34,348 nucleotides of DNA, taken from contig JAITJI010000090.1 of the NCBI GenBank assembly GCA_031279015.1, positions 1-34,348 on the forward strand, written 5' to 3'. The stretch is from Spirochaetaceae bacterium. GTDB lineage: Bacteria; Spirochaetota; Spirochaetia; Treponematales; Breznakiellaceae. The position numbers and the translations under genes are program-made. Shown here in pieces: positions 10,188 to 15,831 of the stretch. The notes beneath the pieces are model-generated. The model worked only from the letters and a program-made list of their open reading frames with translations, searched no databases and was not told the DNA's origin. The stretch's first letter is position 1, and every line of letters starts with the position of its first letter.

Positions 10188-11222
10188 CTAACGCCGGTAG
10201 ATGATGAGGTTTCCTGAACTGGTCCGGACAAAGATGGTCCGTTTTGGCGATGGTCCGAACGGACGGAGGACGGTGCTGTTCCCCGATATCCGCAGAGGTG
10301 CGCCGTCGTCATCTACCTGTACCTTGCCGCTGTTGGTGATGGCGTCCAGGTTAAAGGAAAGTTCCCGGGGGAAGGTCAGCTCCGCATTGCCGCTGGAAAG
10401 CCTGAACCGGAGATCTCCGCTAAGTTCCGCCGCATCCAGCGTTAAAGTGCCGGAATTTATCTTAAAGCTGCCCTCACCGGAGAAATTCCCCACCGACACG
10501 GTACCGCTGGAAATATCCGCTTCCATCCGGCCCAGGGCTTTTTCAATGATGATATTTCCGCTGTTTATTACAATATGTGCGCTGCCCTGCATGGCGCCGA
10601 TCCGGGTTTGGCCGCTTGAGACTTTTATCCGGTGTTCCGGACCGGTCAGATCGCCGATTTGCAGTTTTCCGCTGGAAACACTGACAAAGAAACTGCCCGC
10701 AATACCGGCGACATCCAGGTTGCCGCTGGAAACCCGGACCGAAAGAGTCTCCCCGGAAAGGCGGTTCAGATGTACAGAACCGGAACCTACATTAATATCG
10801 ATGGTTTTGTAGTTGAGGAGATCCGTTTCCGCGGAGAGATCCCCGCCGGAATTGACTAGCCTGAGATCTCCCCGGAATGACCGGGGAAGGTAGATCTCCG
10901 CCCGGGCCTTCCGGAGCCAGATTAACCAAGGACGCCTTCCCCGTTTGATATGTACCGTGGAGCCGGATCGGGAAATTTGTGCATAATACCGGGGCTTGTT
11001 TATTTCCATGTATTCCCGGATGACAAGAGCATCGCCATCGCTTTCCCGGAGGATCACAGCATCGGCGCCGTAACTTATGGAAAGGCCCTCCGCCTCCGCA
11101 AGGCTGACGGTTTGGGTATTCACCAGGGGAAGGTCTTCCAGGGCGTATATCCCCGCAGCCCCCGTCATTAAAAGGAACAACGCCACTGTAGCGTTACGTA
11201 CCATTACTATCACCGTGGTCAT
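10188..11222 (-). CDS. Exported DUF4097-type beta-helix protein
   Basis: About 344 residues from the preferred start. An N-terminal signal peptide (MTTVIVMVRNATVALFLLM, then AGIYA) leads to repeated short beta strands with SSG or NSG turns, such as RVSSGNLDVAG, SVSSGKLQIGD and KVSSGQTRIG. This is the DUF4097/DUF4098 parallel beta-helix pattern, found in LiaX-like envelope stress proteins and adhesin-like proteins. ATG 11222 has AAGGGG about 7 bases upstream and gives a normal signal peptide; ATG 11276, 1 base past the stop of the preceding gene and with AAGGTG upstream, is an alternative that adds 18 residues. It is last in the padR operon. Role by context: an envelope protein induced when PadR is released. 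Molecular function unknown. Confidence 0.8.
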   Translation of the reverse strand: MTTVIVMVRNATVALFLLMTGAAGIYALEDLPLVNTQTVSLAEAEGLSISYGADAVILRESDGDALVIREYMEINKPRYYAQISRSGSTVHIKRGRRPWLIWLRKARAEIYLPRSFRGDLRLVNSGGDLSAETDLLNYKTIDINVGSGSVHLNRLSGETLSVRVSSGNLDVAGIAGSFFVSVSSGKLQIGDLTGPEHRIKVSSGQTRIGAMQGSAHIVINSGNIIIEKALGRMEADISSGTVSVGNFSGEGSFKINSGTLTLDAAELSGDLRFRLSSGNAELTFPRELSFNLDAITNSGKVQVDDDGAPLRISGNSTVLRPFGPSPKRTIFVRTSSGNLIIYRR

Positions 11223-11277
11223 ACACTTCCCCTTATACAAGTTTTCAGAGCTTAGAAAGATTCTCTTGTTATTCATT

Positions 11278-12213
11278 TTATTCACCTTGTATTTTCCCGT
11301 TACGATTCGGTTTCATCATCAGACTTTGAACCACCAGATGGATGGCCACGGCGAATATGAAGATCAGCCAGGAAAACCTGAAACCCAGGAGTAATCCGAA
11401 GAGGATAAAGAACCCCACCGCAGAGATCCATATAGCCCCGGAAACCATGCCGAAGCGGGCAGCGGCAAGGGGATCTTTCCACAGATCCATGCTGGCCTTG
11501 GCCTCTTTTTCATACCGCTCCCGGGCCCAGGGCTTCCGGGTATCTTTTTCGGTCAGGAGGATGAAGATCAGCAGGGCCAGGCCGGGAATAAAGAAGGGGA
11601 TCAGGGTAGCAATGGCCTCCATAAGGCCCCGGTCGGTGGCAAGCCATGTCAGGGGAGAGAGGATGAGACCAAAGGATAGGATCGCCGCCGTCAGAGCGTA
11701 CCAGGCGCTCCGTTTTTTGGAGAGGGGATACCGCCAGGCCGTCTCTTGGGTGATTCCCAGGAAGGTGAATGCCGCAATGGCCGGAGGGATGAAAGCCAGA
11801 AGGGTACCCAGGGCGCCAACCATGTTTTTGTTCGGCTCCCAGAACGCCTCCAGGGCGGATTGTTCCTCCCTGGTAAAGTAAACTACCATGGCGATAATGA
11901 TACCGAGAACTGCCCAGGCTCCGGCGATAACATACATGGCTACCCGGCCGGGCTTGAGGCATGTTCTTATCCCCATATAGGCGTCTTGAATAATCTCCTG
12001 TTTTTTCCTGAGGCTGATCTGATCTGCCAGGGTGGAAATGTCCCCCAGCTCCCCGGTGGCTTTTTCAAAGGCCGCCTGCGGGTCCAGGCCTTTTGTGGAG
12101 AGGCTGGCAATCCGGGCATCCAGATTGGATAAAAGCTCTTCTTTAAAGTCCCGGAGCGCCGCCGTTTCTTCATATTCCGCAAACAGGTTGTGTACGAATT
12201 CCTTGGTCTCCAT
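11278..12213 (-). CDS. DUF1700/HAAS-like membrane protein
   Basis: 311 residues. The N-terminal ~75 residues form a soluble helical domain (KEELLSNLDARIASL, then GLDPQAAFEKATGELGDI), matching the HAAS/DUF1700 or permease-prefix type found with PadR regulators. The rest holds about six or seven membrane spans, starting VAMYVIAGAWAVLGIIIAMVV. The ATG at 12213 overlaps the padR stop (TAATG), showing translational coupling, and the following gene starts within a few bases to 55 bases of its end. In Firmicutes PadR-HAAS-DUF4097 sets are thought to act in envelope stress signalling; the HAAS domain is proposed to bind a PadR or membrane partner. Function here is inferred from that context. Confidence 0.75.
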   Translation of the reverse strand: METKEFVHNLFAEYEETAALRDFKEELLSNLDARIASLSTKGLDPQAAFEKATGELGDISTLADQISLRKKQEIIQDAYMGIRTCLKPGRVAMYVIAGAWAVLGIIIAMVVYFTREEQSALEAFWEPNKNMVGALGTLLAFIPPAIAAFTFLGITQETAWRYPLSKKRSAWYALTAAILSFGLILSPLTWLATDRGLMEAIATLIPFFIPGLALLIFILLTEKDTRKPWARERYEKEAKASMDLWKDPLAAARFGMVSGAIWISAVGFFILFGLLLGFRFSWLIFIFAVAIHLVVQSLMMKPNRNGKIQGE

Positions 12214-12548
12214 TATTCCGCTCCTAATAATTTGCTGAGAATCTTCCGGGTAAACTCCCAATCCAGAATATTCTGCCGGTACTGTTCCCGGCCCTTTTCC
12301 GTGATCCGGTAATACCGCCGCCTTGCCCCCTGGGTTTCATCTCCCCAATAGGAGGTGATACATCCCTCCTGTTCCAGCCGTTTATAACTGGAATAGAGGG
12401 TGGTTTCCTTCAACTCGTACTGTTCCCCGGTTCTATTCAAAATTTCATTGTAAATTTCAAAGCCGTAGGCATCTCCATTTTGAAGAATGTTTAAAACTAT
12501 GGTATCCGTATGACCCCGGAGTACATCGGAGGATAATTTCGGTTCCAT
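12213..12548 (-). CDS. PadR-family transcriptional regulator
   Basis: 111 residues, a typical minimal PadR. It has the winged-helix pattern: LRGHTDTIVLNILQNGDAYGFEIYNEI, then ELKETTLYSSYKRLEQEGCI and a wing with GARRRYYRITEKGREQY. A C-terminal helix follows for dimerisation. AAGGGA lies 6 bases before the ATG. The first gene of a tightly coupled three-gene operon, it would repress its own promoter through the operator at 12571-12602; PadR proteins are usually autorepressors released by a ligand or membrane signal. A very similar site upstream of the neighbouring lipoprotein gene suggests it controls that as well. Confidence 0.88.
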   Translation of the reverse strand: MEPKLSSDVLRGHTDTIVLNILQNGDAYGFEIYNEILNRTGEQYELKETTLYSSYKRLEQEGCITSYWGDETQGARRRYYRITEKGREQYRQNILDWEFTRKILSKLLGAE

Positions 12549-12570
12549 ACCGCATCCCTTATGAGTACGA

Positions 12571-12602
12571 AATAATATGACAGATGATTATTATTATCTG
12601 TC
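12571..12602 (-). promoter_or_regulatory. Operator A upstream of padR
   Basis: GACAGAT and ATCTGTC form a 7-bp inverted repeat with a 10-base spacer (12579-12585 and 12596-12602), just downstream of the padR promoter start. The 32-base segment matches operator B (13389-13420) at 25 of 32 positions without gaps, by hand alignment. Confidence 0.65.
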
Positions 12603-12609
12603 GTATATA

Positions 12610-12638
12610 AATATATATCATATTATTACGTCTGTCAA
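12610..12638 (-). promoter_or_regulatory. Promoter of the padR operon
   Basis: On the minus strand, TTGACA (12633-12638) and TATATT (12610-12615) are 17 bases apart. The -35 box covers the stop codon (12635-12637) of the upstream lipoprotein gene, so padR also receives any read-through from it. Confidence 0.75.
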
Positions 12639-13363
12639 TAGTTAAATAAAAAATTTTTTATCATGAATGAAGGCGCGCCGGTAGTATCAAAGAGAATGTG
12701 GCCGGTGAATTCAAGCCTGCCCTCCCGGGCCAGGATGATAAAATCTATAGGCCTTATATTTCCACTTTCCTTGTTGAAATAGACCACCCCGGCATCCTCA
12801 AGGAGAGTGTATACAAACTGGGAACAAAACATGATATTGGGGAGTTTAGACTTTTTGGTCAGAAGACCCAGGAGATTATAGGAACTACCCTCCCGGTTAA
12901 TCGCCGCCACACGGTTGATAAGCGCCCGTTTTTGTTCCGGTTCCATCCTGAGCCGGTAGACCATCAGGGATGCGCCGGGCTTCCGGTAAAAGTGTTTAAG
13001 CCGTTCCCGGTTAAGGCCGGGGCTGGAAGTTCCGTTGCCGCCGTTATAACTCACCAGGGTTTCCATTGTAGAATCGAAGGACAAGGATACGTGGTTATAG
13101 GAGGTTCCGGTAAAGAATCCGATGAGCTTACTTGCGGGGCTCCCCGTATCCGAAAGGACAATGTAGATGTGGGGATCCGTCAGAGTTCTCCGGGCCGCAT
13201 CAAAATACTCCTCTGGCAGGGAAAGACGGGTAATATACCGGGAAGAATTATGCCTTGGCAGATCCTGTAACAGGGCGGTTATATCCGCCGGGGTCAGGAT
13301 GGCGCAGGAAACAATGGAACAAACAAGGAATATTCCGGAAAAAAACCATCTGATGATACGCAT
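12635..13363 (-). CDS. Lipoprotein with permuted NlpC/P60 (YiiX-like) papain fold
   Basis: 242 residues. A signal ending SIVSC (Cys20) suggests a lipoprotein. The core has IYIVLSDTGS, then GTSYNHVSLSFD with His91, and later NIMFCSQFVYTLLEDAG with Cys180. A histidine before the cysteine, and C-S-Q-F-V leading into a helix, are the marks of the permuted papain-like YiiX/YaeF group, which includes hydrolases of amide or ester bonds in peptidoglycan or lipids. The enzyme activity is inferred only. ATG 13363 follows GAGG at 6 bases. The gene has its own promoter and operator B, nearly identical to those of the padR operon that follows on the same strand, so it likely belongs to the same regulon. 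Confidence 0.75.
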   Translation of the reverse strand: MRIIRWFFSGIFLVCSIVSCAILTPADITALLQDLPRHNSSRYITRLSLPEEYFDAARRTLTDPHIYIVLSDTGSPASKLIGFFTGTSYNHVSLSFDSTMETLVSYNGGNGTSSPGLNRERLKHFYRKPGASLMVYRLRMEPEQKRALINRVAAINREGSSYNLLGLLTKKSKLPNIMFCSQFVYTLLEDAGVVYFNKESGNIRPIDFIILAREGRLEFTGHILFDTTGAPSFMIKNFLFNY

Positions 13364-13388
13364 GTATTACCTCGTTTATGAAAGGCAT

Positions 13389-13420
13389 AGTAATATGACA
13401 TGTAGATATTATTATCTATC
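13389..13420 (-). promoter_or_regulatory. Operator B upstream of the lipoprotein gene
   Basis: A 32-base segment that matches operator A at 25 of 32 positions. It includes TAATATGACA (13391-13400) and the symmetric element TAGATA/TATCTA. It overlaps the -10 box at 13411-13416, so a bound PadR dimer would exclude polymerase. Confidence 0.6.
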
Positions 13421-13439
13421 AAATTATTACGATTGTCAA
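13411..13439 (-). promoter_or_regulatory. Promoter of the lipoprotein gene
   Basis: On the minus strand, TTGACA (13434-13439) and GATAAT (13411-13416) are 17 bases apart. From the -35 box on, 20 of the first 23 bases equal those of the padR promoter. Confidence 0.75.
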
Positions 13440-13545
13440 GTATATATGCAAGATGAGGATTTGCGGCCCAATTAACGTCTGATACCGGCATACTCTATTT
13501 TCCTTCTTGATATTTACCCTTTTAAGGAGTATTAATTATTTATAT

Positions 13546-15831
13546 ATGGCTACAGTGCTTTCGCCTTATCGTCTTGGTAAGGCACGGGATCTTTACAATC
13601 TGTTTAATGTTTTCAATTCTTTTTCCTGGCAGTTTTTGGTTGGAACTATAATTATTCTCCTGGCGATGCGGCTCAATGCATCCTCCACCGTTATCGGTCT
13701 GCTCAATGCCCTGGTCTATGTATCCTTCTTCTTCCTGCCCATGGGAAAGCTGTTGGCCAAAAAATGTTCCATCATAAAAATTTATGGTGTCGCATGGATA
13801 ATACGGGCTATTGCCATGAGCCCTCTCCTCTTGATCCCCTTTTTTGTGTCCCAGGGGCGGGGAGATACAGCCCTGGGATTGATCCTTCTGGGGGTTTTCA
13901 TCTTCCATGCATCCCGGGGCGTGGGGATGATCGCCAATAACCCTGTTTTGGACGAGCTGGCCACCGGTCCTGACCGGGGCAGCTATATGACCCAGATACA
14001 GATCATCAACAGTGCAGTGGCCATGTTTTCCAGTTTTGCCATCGCACTGATACTGGGAAGGAATCCGCCCCTTTTTCTCTATGCCCTGCTCATAGCCGTG
14101 GGGATCGCCGGGGGTGTCTTCAGCGGCGTCCTGGTTCTGAAGATCCCCAAACCGGAGATTGAGACCGGGGAAAAGAGTATCGGTTTGGCCGGGATCTTCC
14201 GGAAGGCCTTATCCAATCCACCGCTTCGGCACTTCATCATCATACTGGTCCTGGTGGCTCTGGTTTCAGGTGTTGCCCGGGCTTTTGTTACGGTGTACAG
14301 CCGGGAAGTGTTCAACCAGGGTGATGGTATGGTCTCCCTCTATTCGGTTTTTGGAGGCATGGGGAATCTGATGATAGGATTGCTCATCAAATTCCTCGTA
14401 GACCGAATCGGCGTAAAACCAATTTATATCGTATGTACTATTTTGGGACTTGTGGGGATGATCCCCATCGTGTTTTTTCCCGCTGCGGCGGTAGACAATA
14501 CAACCACGGTGGTCCTTTACCTTACTTTTCTGTTTTTTATCCTGAATTTTGGCTTTCTGGGGGCTGAAGGGATCGCTCAGACCTACTTTCTAGCCCTGAT
14601 TCCCCAGGAACTGATGCTGGACATGGGGATCCTCTACTTTTTTGTGTTCGGAGTCGCCGGGGCGGGCGGGTCCTTCCTTGCGGGGTTGTTCCTGGATGCC
14701 TTTGCCGGCCTGGGATTTTCCGTGTTTGTATCCTACAAGATCCTCTACATTGTGCTGATAGGAATCACCGTGGCGGTTCTGGTGCTGCAACGGAAGCTAA
14801 TCCCTCTGGGTTCCCTGCCTTTCAGGGGCGCCCTGGAGGTGATGTTCTCCTACCGGGATCTCAAGGCCATAAGTATTCTGGACCGGTTGAACAAAACCAG
14901 GGATACCGACGAAGAGGAAGCCCTGCTGGGCGCCCTCCACGACACCCCTTCAAAGCTGGCCATCAAGGGCCTTCTTGAACGGGCAAAATCTCCCCGGCTG
15001 GTGGTACGGCTAGAGGCTCTTCGGGCCATGGAAGCCCTGGAAACGCTGAATGAAGACGCCGAAAAGGCCCTGATAGCGGATATGATCAACAATCCCTATA
15101 CCACCGCCTATATATCCGCCCGGATCCTGGGGAAAAACCATTTTTCCTCCGCCATACCCATCCTGCGGGAACTTGCCGGTTCCGACGACTATATGTTGGC
15201 CGGAGAGGCGATAATCGCCCTGGCGCGGCTTGACGACAGGGCTTTTCTACCCCAGATAGAAAAGATCATCGTTAAAACGAAAAATCCCCGTCTTAAAATC
15301 ATGGGGGTGGAGGCTTTTGGCATTTACCGGTCGCCCGAATCCCTTTCGGTACTGCTGGACATGCTCCGGGTGGACAATCCGCCTCCCTATCTGCGGGATG
15401 AGGTAGTTTTGTCCATGGCAAATATTCTGGATGTCCAAAACCTGTTCTACCGGATTCTGGTCCGTTTCCGGGAGAACGAGAATCTGGCGGTCACCCTGGC
15501 AATGGATGATGCTGAGGCGGCGGTGGAATTTTACAGTTCCAGTCTGGGGGGCTGGAAAAGTATCCGGAAAAAGCCCGCCCTTGCGGAGAGCAGCAAGCAG
15601 GCAAAATCCCTCTCCCCTGCCGTAGCCGCGTATATGAAGGAGTCAAACGGCAGCCCGCTCTCCCGGTGGATCCTGGAATTGCCGGAGGATCACTGTGATC
15701 CCATGGTCCAACTGATCCTCTCCGAGGCGGTCCTGGACGATGACCTCAACTCCCACAATCGGCTGCGGTTACTCATAATCCACTGGGCCACCCGGGAACT
15801 GCGAATCCTGACGAACCGTCTGAAGGGCTAA
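13546..15831 (+). CDS. MFS-like transporter fused to a C-terminal HEAT-repeat domain
   Basis: 761 residues. The first ~430 contain about 12 hydrophobic spans in an MFS arrangement (for example LVGTIIILLAMRLNASSTVIGLLNALVYVSFFFLPMG split over two helices, and DRIGVKPIYIVCTILGLVGM after the central loop). From about 438 to 640 the sequence changes to soluble helical repeats of the HEAT/Armadillo type: SPRLVVRLEALRAMEALE, then SAIPILRELAGSDDYMLAG and NPRLKIMGVEAFGIYRSPE. Such repeats usually bind proteins or phosphoregulators on the cytoplasmic side. The substrate is unknown. ATG 13546 begins a natural MFS N-terminus, but the nearest AAGGAG (13524-13529) is 16 bases away, so translation start is uncertain. 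Convergent or divergent partners give no hint of the substrate. Confidence 0.78.
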   Translation: MATVLSPYRLGKARDLYNLFNVFNSFSWQFLVGTIIILLAMRLNASSTVIGLLNALVYVSFFFLPMGKLLAKKCSIIKIYGVAWIIRAIAMSPLLLIPFFVSQGRGDTALGLILLGVFIFHASRGVGMIANNPVLDELATGPDRGSYMTQIQIINSAVAMFSSFAIALILGRNPPLFLYALLIAVGIAGGVFSGVLVLKIPKPEIETGEKSIGLAGIFRKALSNPPLRHFIIILVLVALVSGVARAFVTVYSREVFNQGDGMVSLYSVFGGMGNLMIGLLIKFLVDRIGVKPIYIVCTILGLVGMIPIVFFPAAAVDNTTTVVLYLTFLFFILNFGFLGAEGIAQTYFLALIPQELMLDMGILYFFVFGVAGAGGSFLAGLFLDAFAGLGFSVFVSYKILYIVLIGITVAVLVLQRKLIPLGSLPFRGALEVMFSYRDLKAISILDRLNKTRDTDEEEALLGALHDTPSKLAIKGLLERAKSPRLVVRLEALRAMEALETLNEDAEKALIADMINNPYTTAYISARILGKNHFSSAIPILRELAGSDDYMLAGEAIIALARLDDRAFLPQIEKIIVKTKNPRLKIMGVEAFGIYRSPESLSVLLDMLRVDNPPPYLRDEVVLSMANILDVQNLFYRILVRFRENENLAVTLAMDDAEAAVEFYSSSLGGWKSIRKKPALAESSKQAKSLSPAVAAYMKESNGSPLSRWILELPEDHCDPMVQLILSEAVLDDDLNSHNRLRLLIIHWATRELRILTNRLKG

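Follow-up and report, generated by a model that had tools for sequence, protein, structure and literature searches.

Self-regulation by PadR proteins and the gene order padR-DUF1700-DUF4097 are both already known from Listeria monocytogenes, in which LltR represses its own operon (LltR-lmo0600-lmo0601, the last two encoding DUF1700 and DUF4097 proteins) by approximately 100 to 150-fold (PMC6624303). The main text of that report gives no operator sequence for LltR. HAAS-PadR dyads, in which a PadR is found beside a DUF1700/HAAS-type membrane protein and a Toastrack (DUF4097) protein, have been proposed to relay membrane signals to PadR in PSP-like envelope stress systems, and to be widely used in envelope stress in place of two-component systems (PMC11237479); the dyad is described in the sections of this source considered here by its proteins and gene order, with no operator, and none was found for such dyads in the open literature searched. 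Both arrangements resemble a locus in the window, by which we mean the whole 34,348-nucleotide contig of a gut Spirochaetaceae bacterium analysed here (JAITJI010000090.1). Unlike the Listeria operon as described, this locus includes a lipoprotein gene with its own promoter. The circuit is apparently of an ordinary kind, and it is its operator that appears unmapped, no description having been found in the open papers searched.

The cluster runs on the minus strand from a lipoprotein-like gene through padR and a DUF1700/HAAS-like gene to a DUF4097 gene (Table 1). Overlaps of a few bases link the last three, which are therefore read as one operon, and the padR promoter begins within the lipoprotein stop codon. 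The lipoprotein-like product has a lipobox-like IVSC on direct reading of the sequence, and had been called a hydrolase; conserved His and Cys residues in the motifs YNH and MFCSQ, kept in eight homologs, favour this assignment, but its match to PF05708 (21.8 bits, E=2e-4) is below the Pfam cut-off of 27. PadR is a member of the PadR family, subfamily 2 (PF03551, 71.6 bits, cut-off 27), that can be aligned over its full length with solved small PadRs (1xma, 1.7e-33), an alignment from which a C-terminal dimerisation helix is predicted; its recognition helix is ELKETTLYSSYKRLE. The membrane protein matches the NCBIfam permease prefix domain NF038403 (34.4 bits, cut-off 30) and no Pfam profile over cut-off, DUF1700/HAAS included, in which it differs from the membrane protein of the HAAS-PadR dyad. 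An ortholog of it follows padR in most relatives. The DUF4097 protein (PF13349, 86 bits, cut-off 22.9) supplies the Toastrack component of HAAS-PadR and LltR-type operons. Five related metagenome-assembled genomes (MAGs) share this gene order and the double promoter. The divergent neighbour (13507-15831, plus strand) encodes a fusion of an MFS-type membrane protein with HEAT repeats (PF07690, 4e-15; PF13646, 5e-13), and no operators oriented to it were found besides those of the lipoprotein promoter.

Table 1. Promoter elements, predicted operators and genes of the padR cluster, and small ORFs at related loci.
Feature	Position	Strand	Remarks
-35 box TTGACA, lipoprotein promoter	13434..13439	-	
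Predicted PadR operator 1, lipoprotein promoter, spacer	13418..13433	-	ATCGTAATAATTTGAT, score 14.3
-10 box GATAAT, lipoprotein promoter	13411..13416	-	
Predicted PadR operator 2, lipoprotein promoter, offset 34	13384..13399	-	GTCATATTACTATGCC, score 20.4, best of 34 kb
Lipoprotein-like gene	12635..13363	-	242 aa; permuted papain-like (Peptidase C92, YaeF/YiiX) relative; first gene of the cluster
-35 box TTGACA, padR promoter	12633..12638	-	Overlaps lipoprotein stop codon TGA
Predicted PadR operator 1, padR promoter, spacer	12617..12632	-	GACGTAATAATATGAT, score 17.2
-10 box TATATT, padR promoter	12610..12615	-	
Predicted PadR operator 2, padR promoter, offset 51	12566..12581	-	GTCATATTATTTCGTA, score 9.0 (weak)
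padR	12213..12548	-	PadR-family winged-helix regulator, 111 aa; sole PadR match in the genome
DUF1700/HAAS-like membrane protein gene	11278..12213	-	ATG overlaps padR stop (TAATG)
DUF4097 (Toastrack) gene	10188..11285	-	Last gene of the operon; PF13349 3.5e-24
Tiny ORF before padR	L047:1077-1163, L049:4875-4964, L050:4868-4957, L051:2217-2306, L052:1609-1770, L053:195-284		

The sequence-only reading had drawn attention to the likeness of the lipoprotein and padR promoters, and its counts proved exact: from the -35 box on the minus strand, TTGACAGACGTAATAATATGATA (12638-12616, padR) and TTGACAATCGTAATAATTTGATA (13439-13417, lipoprotein) are identical at 20 of 23 positions, and the downstream segments (12602-12571 and 13420-13389) at 25 of 32. 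The alignment score of the two promoter regions is 54, compared with a mean of 25.4 (s.d. 4.5) and a maximum of 52 in 2000 dinucleotide shuffles. The common 30-mer GAYAGATAATAATAN6TGTCATATTA occurs only at these two places in the 2.69-Mb assembly (90% complete; scanned by pattern search), even with up to three mismatches allowed, and no scattered copies of the motif were seen. A single 17-bp gap, placed after the spacer, separates the two stretches, as a result of which the downstream block shifts over the -10 box at the lipoprotein promoter.

For comparison we used 42 loci with PadR relatives (57-94% identity) together with loci from 59 related genomes, a sample that includes many MAGs and several loci that nearly duplicate one another. 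The padR promoters of the orthologs have in common the block aCTTGACAGTC[G/A]TAGTAATA[T/C]GNNNTATAAT, which is a sigma-70 promoter with its 17-bp spacer occupied by a palindrome. From -35 through -10, 49 promoters can be aligned without a gap, the two boxes themselves accounting for part of this strong conservation. The comparison defines the main site as (T)GTC[A/G]TA-GTAA-TA[T/C]GAC(A), filling the spacer between the boxes; it is a perfect palindrome in Alicyclobacillus (L077; TGTCATA-GTAA-TATGACA) and an imperfect one in the window, and support for paired arm positions (G/A with C/T) is weak (p 0.019). The block is present in Spirochaetota, Bacillota, Synergistota and Chloroflexota and, more weakly, in Actinomycetota (11.9, L066), several of these representatives being MAGs. 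Two loci (L070, L054) have no good site directly upstream, and in six (L056, L064, L065, L079, L085, L087) the site is weak or variant. Clostridia, Synergistota and Coriobacteriales loci (L056, L060, L061, L066-L069, L073) encode PadRs 75-80% identical to that of the spirochaete, and several of these proteins come from MAGs of the same sampling series, indicative of either gene transfer or binning errors. Most promoters also conserve GA[C/T]AG at about +1 (positions 36-40 from the -35 box), 34 bp past the GACAG that overlaps the -35 box, which is possibly a half-site. Both offsets, 34 and 51, are divisible by 17.

From 32 ortholog padR promoters, none of them in the window, we built a 16-bp matrix and ran it over the 34 kb; it ranked the downstream site of the lipoprotein promoter first, the padR and lipoprotein spacer sites second and third, and the downstream padR site fifth. 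Putative PadR-type operators are therefore found in both promoters, as had been proposed, with two copies in each, one within the spacer and one downstream. The spacer copy is the best conserved and has an identical register in the two promoters; the window combines a palindrome in fixed -35/-10 register at padR with a YSS-type recognition helix. Taken together, the sequence comparisons make it quite probable that a single envelope-protein cluster is served by these two sigma-70-type promoters in tandem, each of them repressed by the cluster's own PadR via the spacer palindrome.

The sequence-only reading had assigned one operator, in the GAYAGATAATAATA...TGTCATATTA block beyond the spacer, to a position just past the -10 box at padR and over it at the lipoprotein gene, and had predicted tighter repression of the latter. 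Its positions hold for the aligned block but not for the main site, which is in the spacer of both promoters alike; the conserved operator is in the half that it had treated as promoter, and each promoter has two copies. The 25/32 block is real, its TGTCATATTA end is the second operator copy, which lies within that block, and TGATAGA-AATAATAT is also kept in the lipoprotein promoters of relatives. However, most padR orthologs have the spacer site alone, the downstream copy being confined to lipoprotein-type promoters, and the padR promoter of the window has the stronger spacer site, so that we regard a single downstream operator, differently placed in each promoter, as improbable. Nor does tighter repression of the lipoprotein gene follow from the site scores, since its spacer site scores below that of padR (14.3 versus 17.2) and its downstream site above (20.4 versus 9.0).

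A search of 149 relatives for a strict 29-bp promoter-operator pattern, with gene positions left out of account, yielded 20 matches, and none for the reversed pattern used as control. Leaving out those in the window, 18 matches remain, and in 17 cases a padR follows within 1.1 kb. Of 59 genomes searched for both pattern and padR, seven of the 10 genomes with a close padR ortholog contain a strict match, versus none of the 49 without one (Fisher 3.5e-7), although in one of the seven (G018) the match and padR are on separate contigs. The G018 match (L106:1501-1529; G018:C312) lies at the end of a contig, is followed by no padR, and may be a second regulon member or due to chance. In 299 Bacilli genomes chosen by class only, the same blind search returned 16 matches (reversed pattern, 0), 11 of them at 41-54 bp upstream of a PadR start. 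Within the genome of the window the strict pattern is found only at the two promoters, with no one-mismatch matches and four two-mismatch matches elsewhere, about the control level of three. The small local regulon suggested earlier (lipoprotein, PadR, DUF1700-like and DUF4097 proteins) is therefore supported as a prediction, only these two promoters matching in the genome. At two related loci (L058:1427-2143, L035:480-1403), the first gene behind the operator is not a lipoprotein gene but a DUF2807 gene (head GIN domain, Toastrack-like; E 9e-38 and 9e-36).

The motif-linked PadRs have in common the recognition helix ELKE[TA]T[LM]YSS[YL][KR]RLE or close variants of it, and the remaining PadRs of the set have helices of the type SEGTLYPLLxR. 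The association of motif and PadR is genomic, which would accommodate another conserved regulator binding the palindrome while PadR acts elsewhere. We consider this very unlikely: the motif tracks padR genes of one helix type across phyla, and a described PadR, LmrR, binds an oligonucleotide with the same 12-bp core bar one change. In one PadR clade (L056, L064, L065, L066) the helix reads [VAT]DTLYSSY and the half-site has C or A instead of T, a coincidence of helix change (ET to [VAT]D) and half-site change that also speaks against a different regulator, as a single event. Counted by locus, this co-variation reaches 6e-5, but on the tree all four loci fall in one clade; it therefore represents one event and is only suggestive of co-evolution.

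The downstream copies bear on the history of the two promoters. Five relatives have a lipoprotein gene upstream of padR, and in its promoter a second operator follows the first at a distance of exactly 51 bp (strong in L047, L049 and L052, weak in L050 and L051); the padR promoters of these five have a single operator. The padR promoter of the window has the 51-bp arrangement and aligns with the lipoprotein promoters of the relatives (scores 33-41; 54-58 identities over 65-75 aligned positions, 58/75 with L052), in contrast to its poor alignment with their padR promoters (scores 9-16). The lipoprotein promoter of the window is of the same type minus 17 bp, placing its second operator at 34, and has a different -10 box (GATAAT). 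The padR promoter thus probably arose as a copy of the lipoprotein promoter and took the place of an earlier padR promoter with a single operator. The simplest history, judged from a handful of MAGs, would be that a duplicate of the lipoprotein promoter overwrote the padR promoter in this lineage and that the lipoprotein copy lost 17 bp. Copying is likely enough that the likeness of the two promoters could be ascribed to recent duplication without a regulator, as descent rather than a binding site, but the palindrome is kept at padR in distant phyla with no such duplication and the blind search recovers padR genes, which leaves this explanation a very low probability. In six relatives a tiny ORF of 28-53 aa lies between padR and the promoter with the operator; its predicted peptide has a single hydrophobic stretch (like MK..LR.AGI.LILIGILGLI), and the window has no such ORF. 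Although the peptides look alike, the differences by codon position (82/71/80), with no third-position excess, lend coding no support.

A PadR dimer most likely binds the spacer palindrome and would thereby block RNA polymerase directly, at the padR promoter as well as at the lipoprotein promoter, a mechanism with which the experiments on LltR and LmrR agree. The downstream site, 34 or 51 bp further on, would probably add to repression, possibly cooperatively. Such a self-limiting switch would keep the cluster off until a signal, probably arriving via the membrane-bound DUF1700/HAAS-like partner, released PadR, upon which the lipoprotein, PadR, HAAS-like and Toastrack proteins would be made together. 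As the 29-bp pattern finds padR genes blindly and with few false matches, regulons of this kind should be predictable in many genomes.

Described PadR operators differ from the spacer palindrome to varying degrees. The canonical PadR box ATGT-N8-ACAT, which is typical of the family but not universal, is absent from the window, and its N8/N10 form from all 49 promoters. cdPadR1 of Clostridium difficile is a subfamily 2 PadR with two inverted repeats in its own promoter, as here, but its site, TACT-N11/12-AGTA, has other half-sites and spacing and 200 genome matches, versus two promoters for the present motif (PMC5050560); it occurs in one of the 49 promoters. On these counts (0/49 and 1/49), neither box explains the promoters. 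A closer parallel is LmrR of Lactococcus lactis, a member of the small PadR subfamily with 95-bit similarity to the window PadR, which represses its own gene with several dimers on its own promoter (PMC5428041, PMC4534193). LmrR binds a 33-bp lmrR operator containing CATAGTAATGTG (110 nM, 1:1; PMC5428041), a sequence that scores 14.5 of 18.4 with the core matrix (p=0.0006 versus shuffles), and among PadR work in the open full text of 5.39 million papers, the LmrR paper alone contained any of six 12-mers of the motif. The lmrCD operator did not match the core matrix. LmrR controls a drug exporter, and its authors read the operator as ATGT-N8-ACAT and not as the motif found here (PMC5428041, PMC4534193), so its link to the window motif is hypothetical. 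We give roughly even chances to the wider proposal that the spacer palindrome is an ancient, undescribed operator class for HAAS-coupled and LmrR-like PadRs of several phyla, with the LmrR own-gene site a member of it rather than a degenerate ATGT-N8-ACAT. The motif can be tested with one oligonucleotide, and the proposal would also revise, in a way open to experiment, the operator assigned to the well-studied LmrR.
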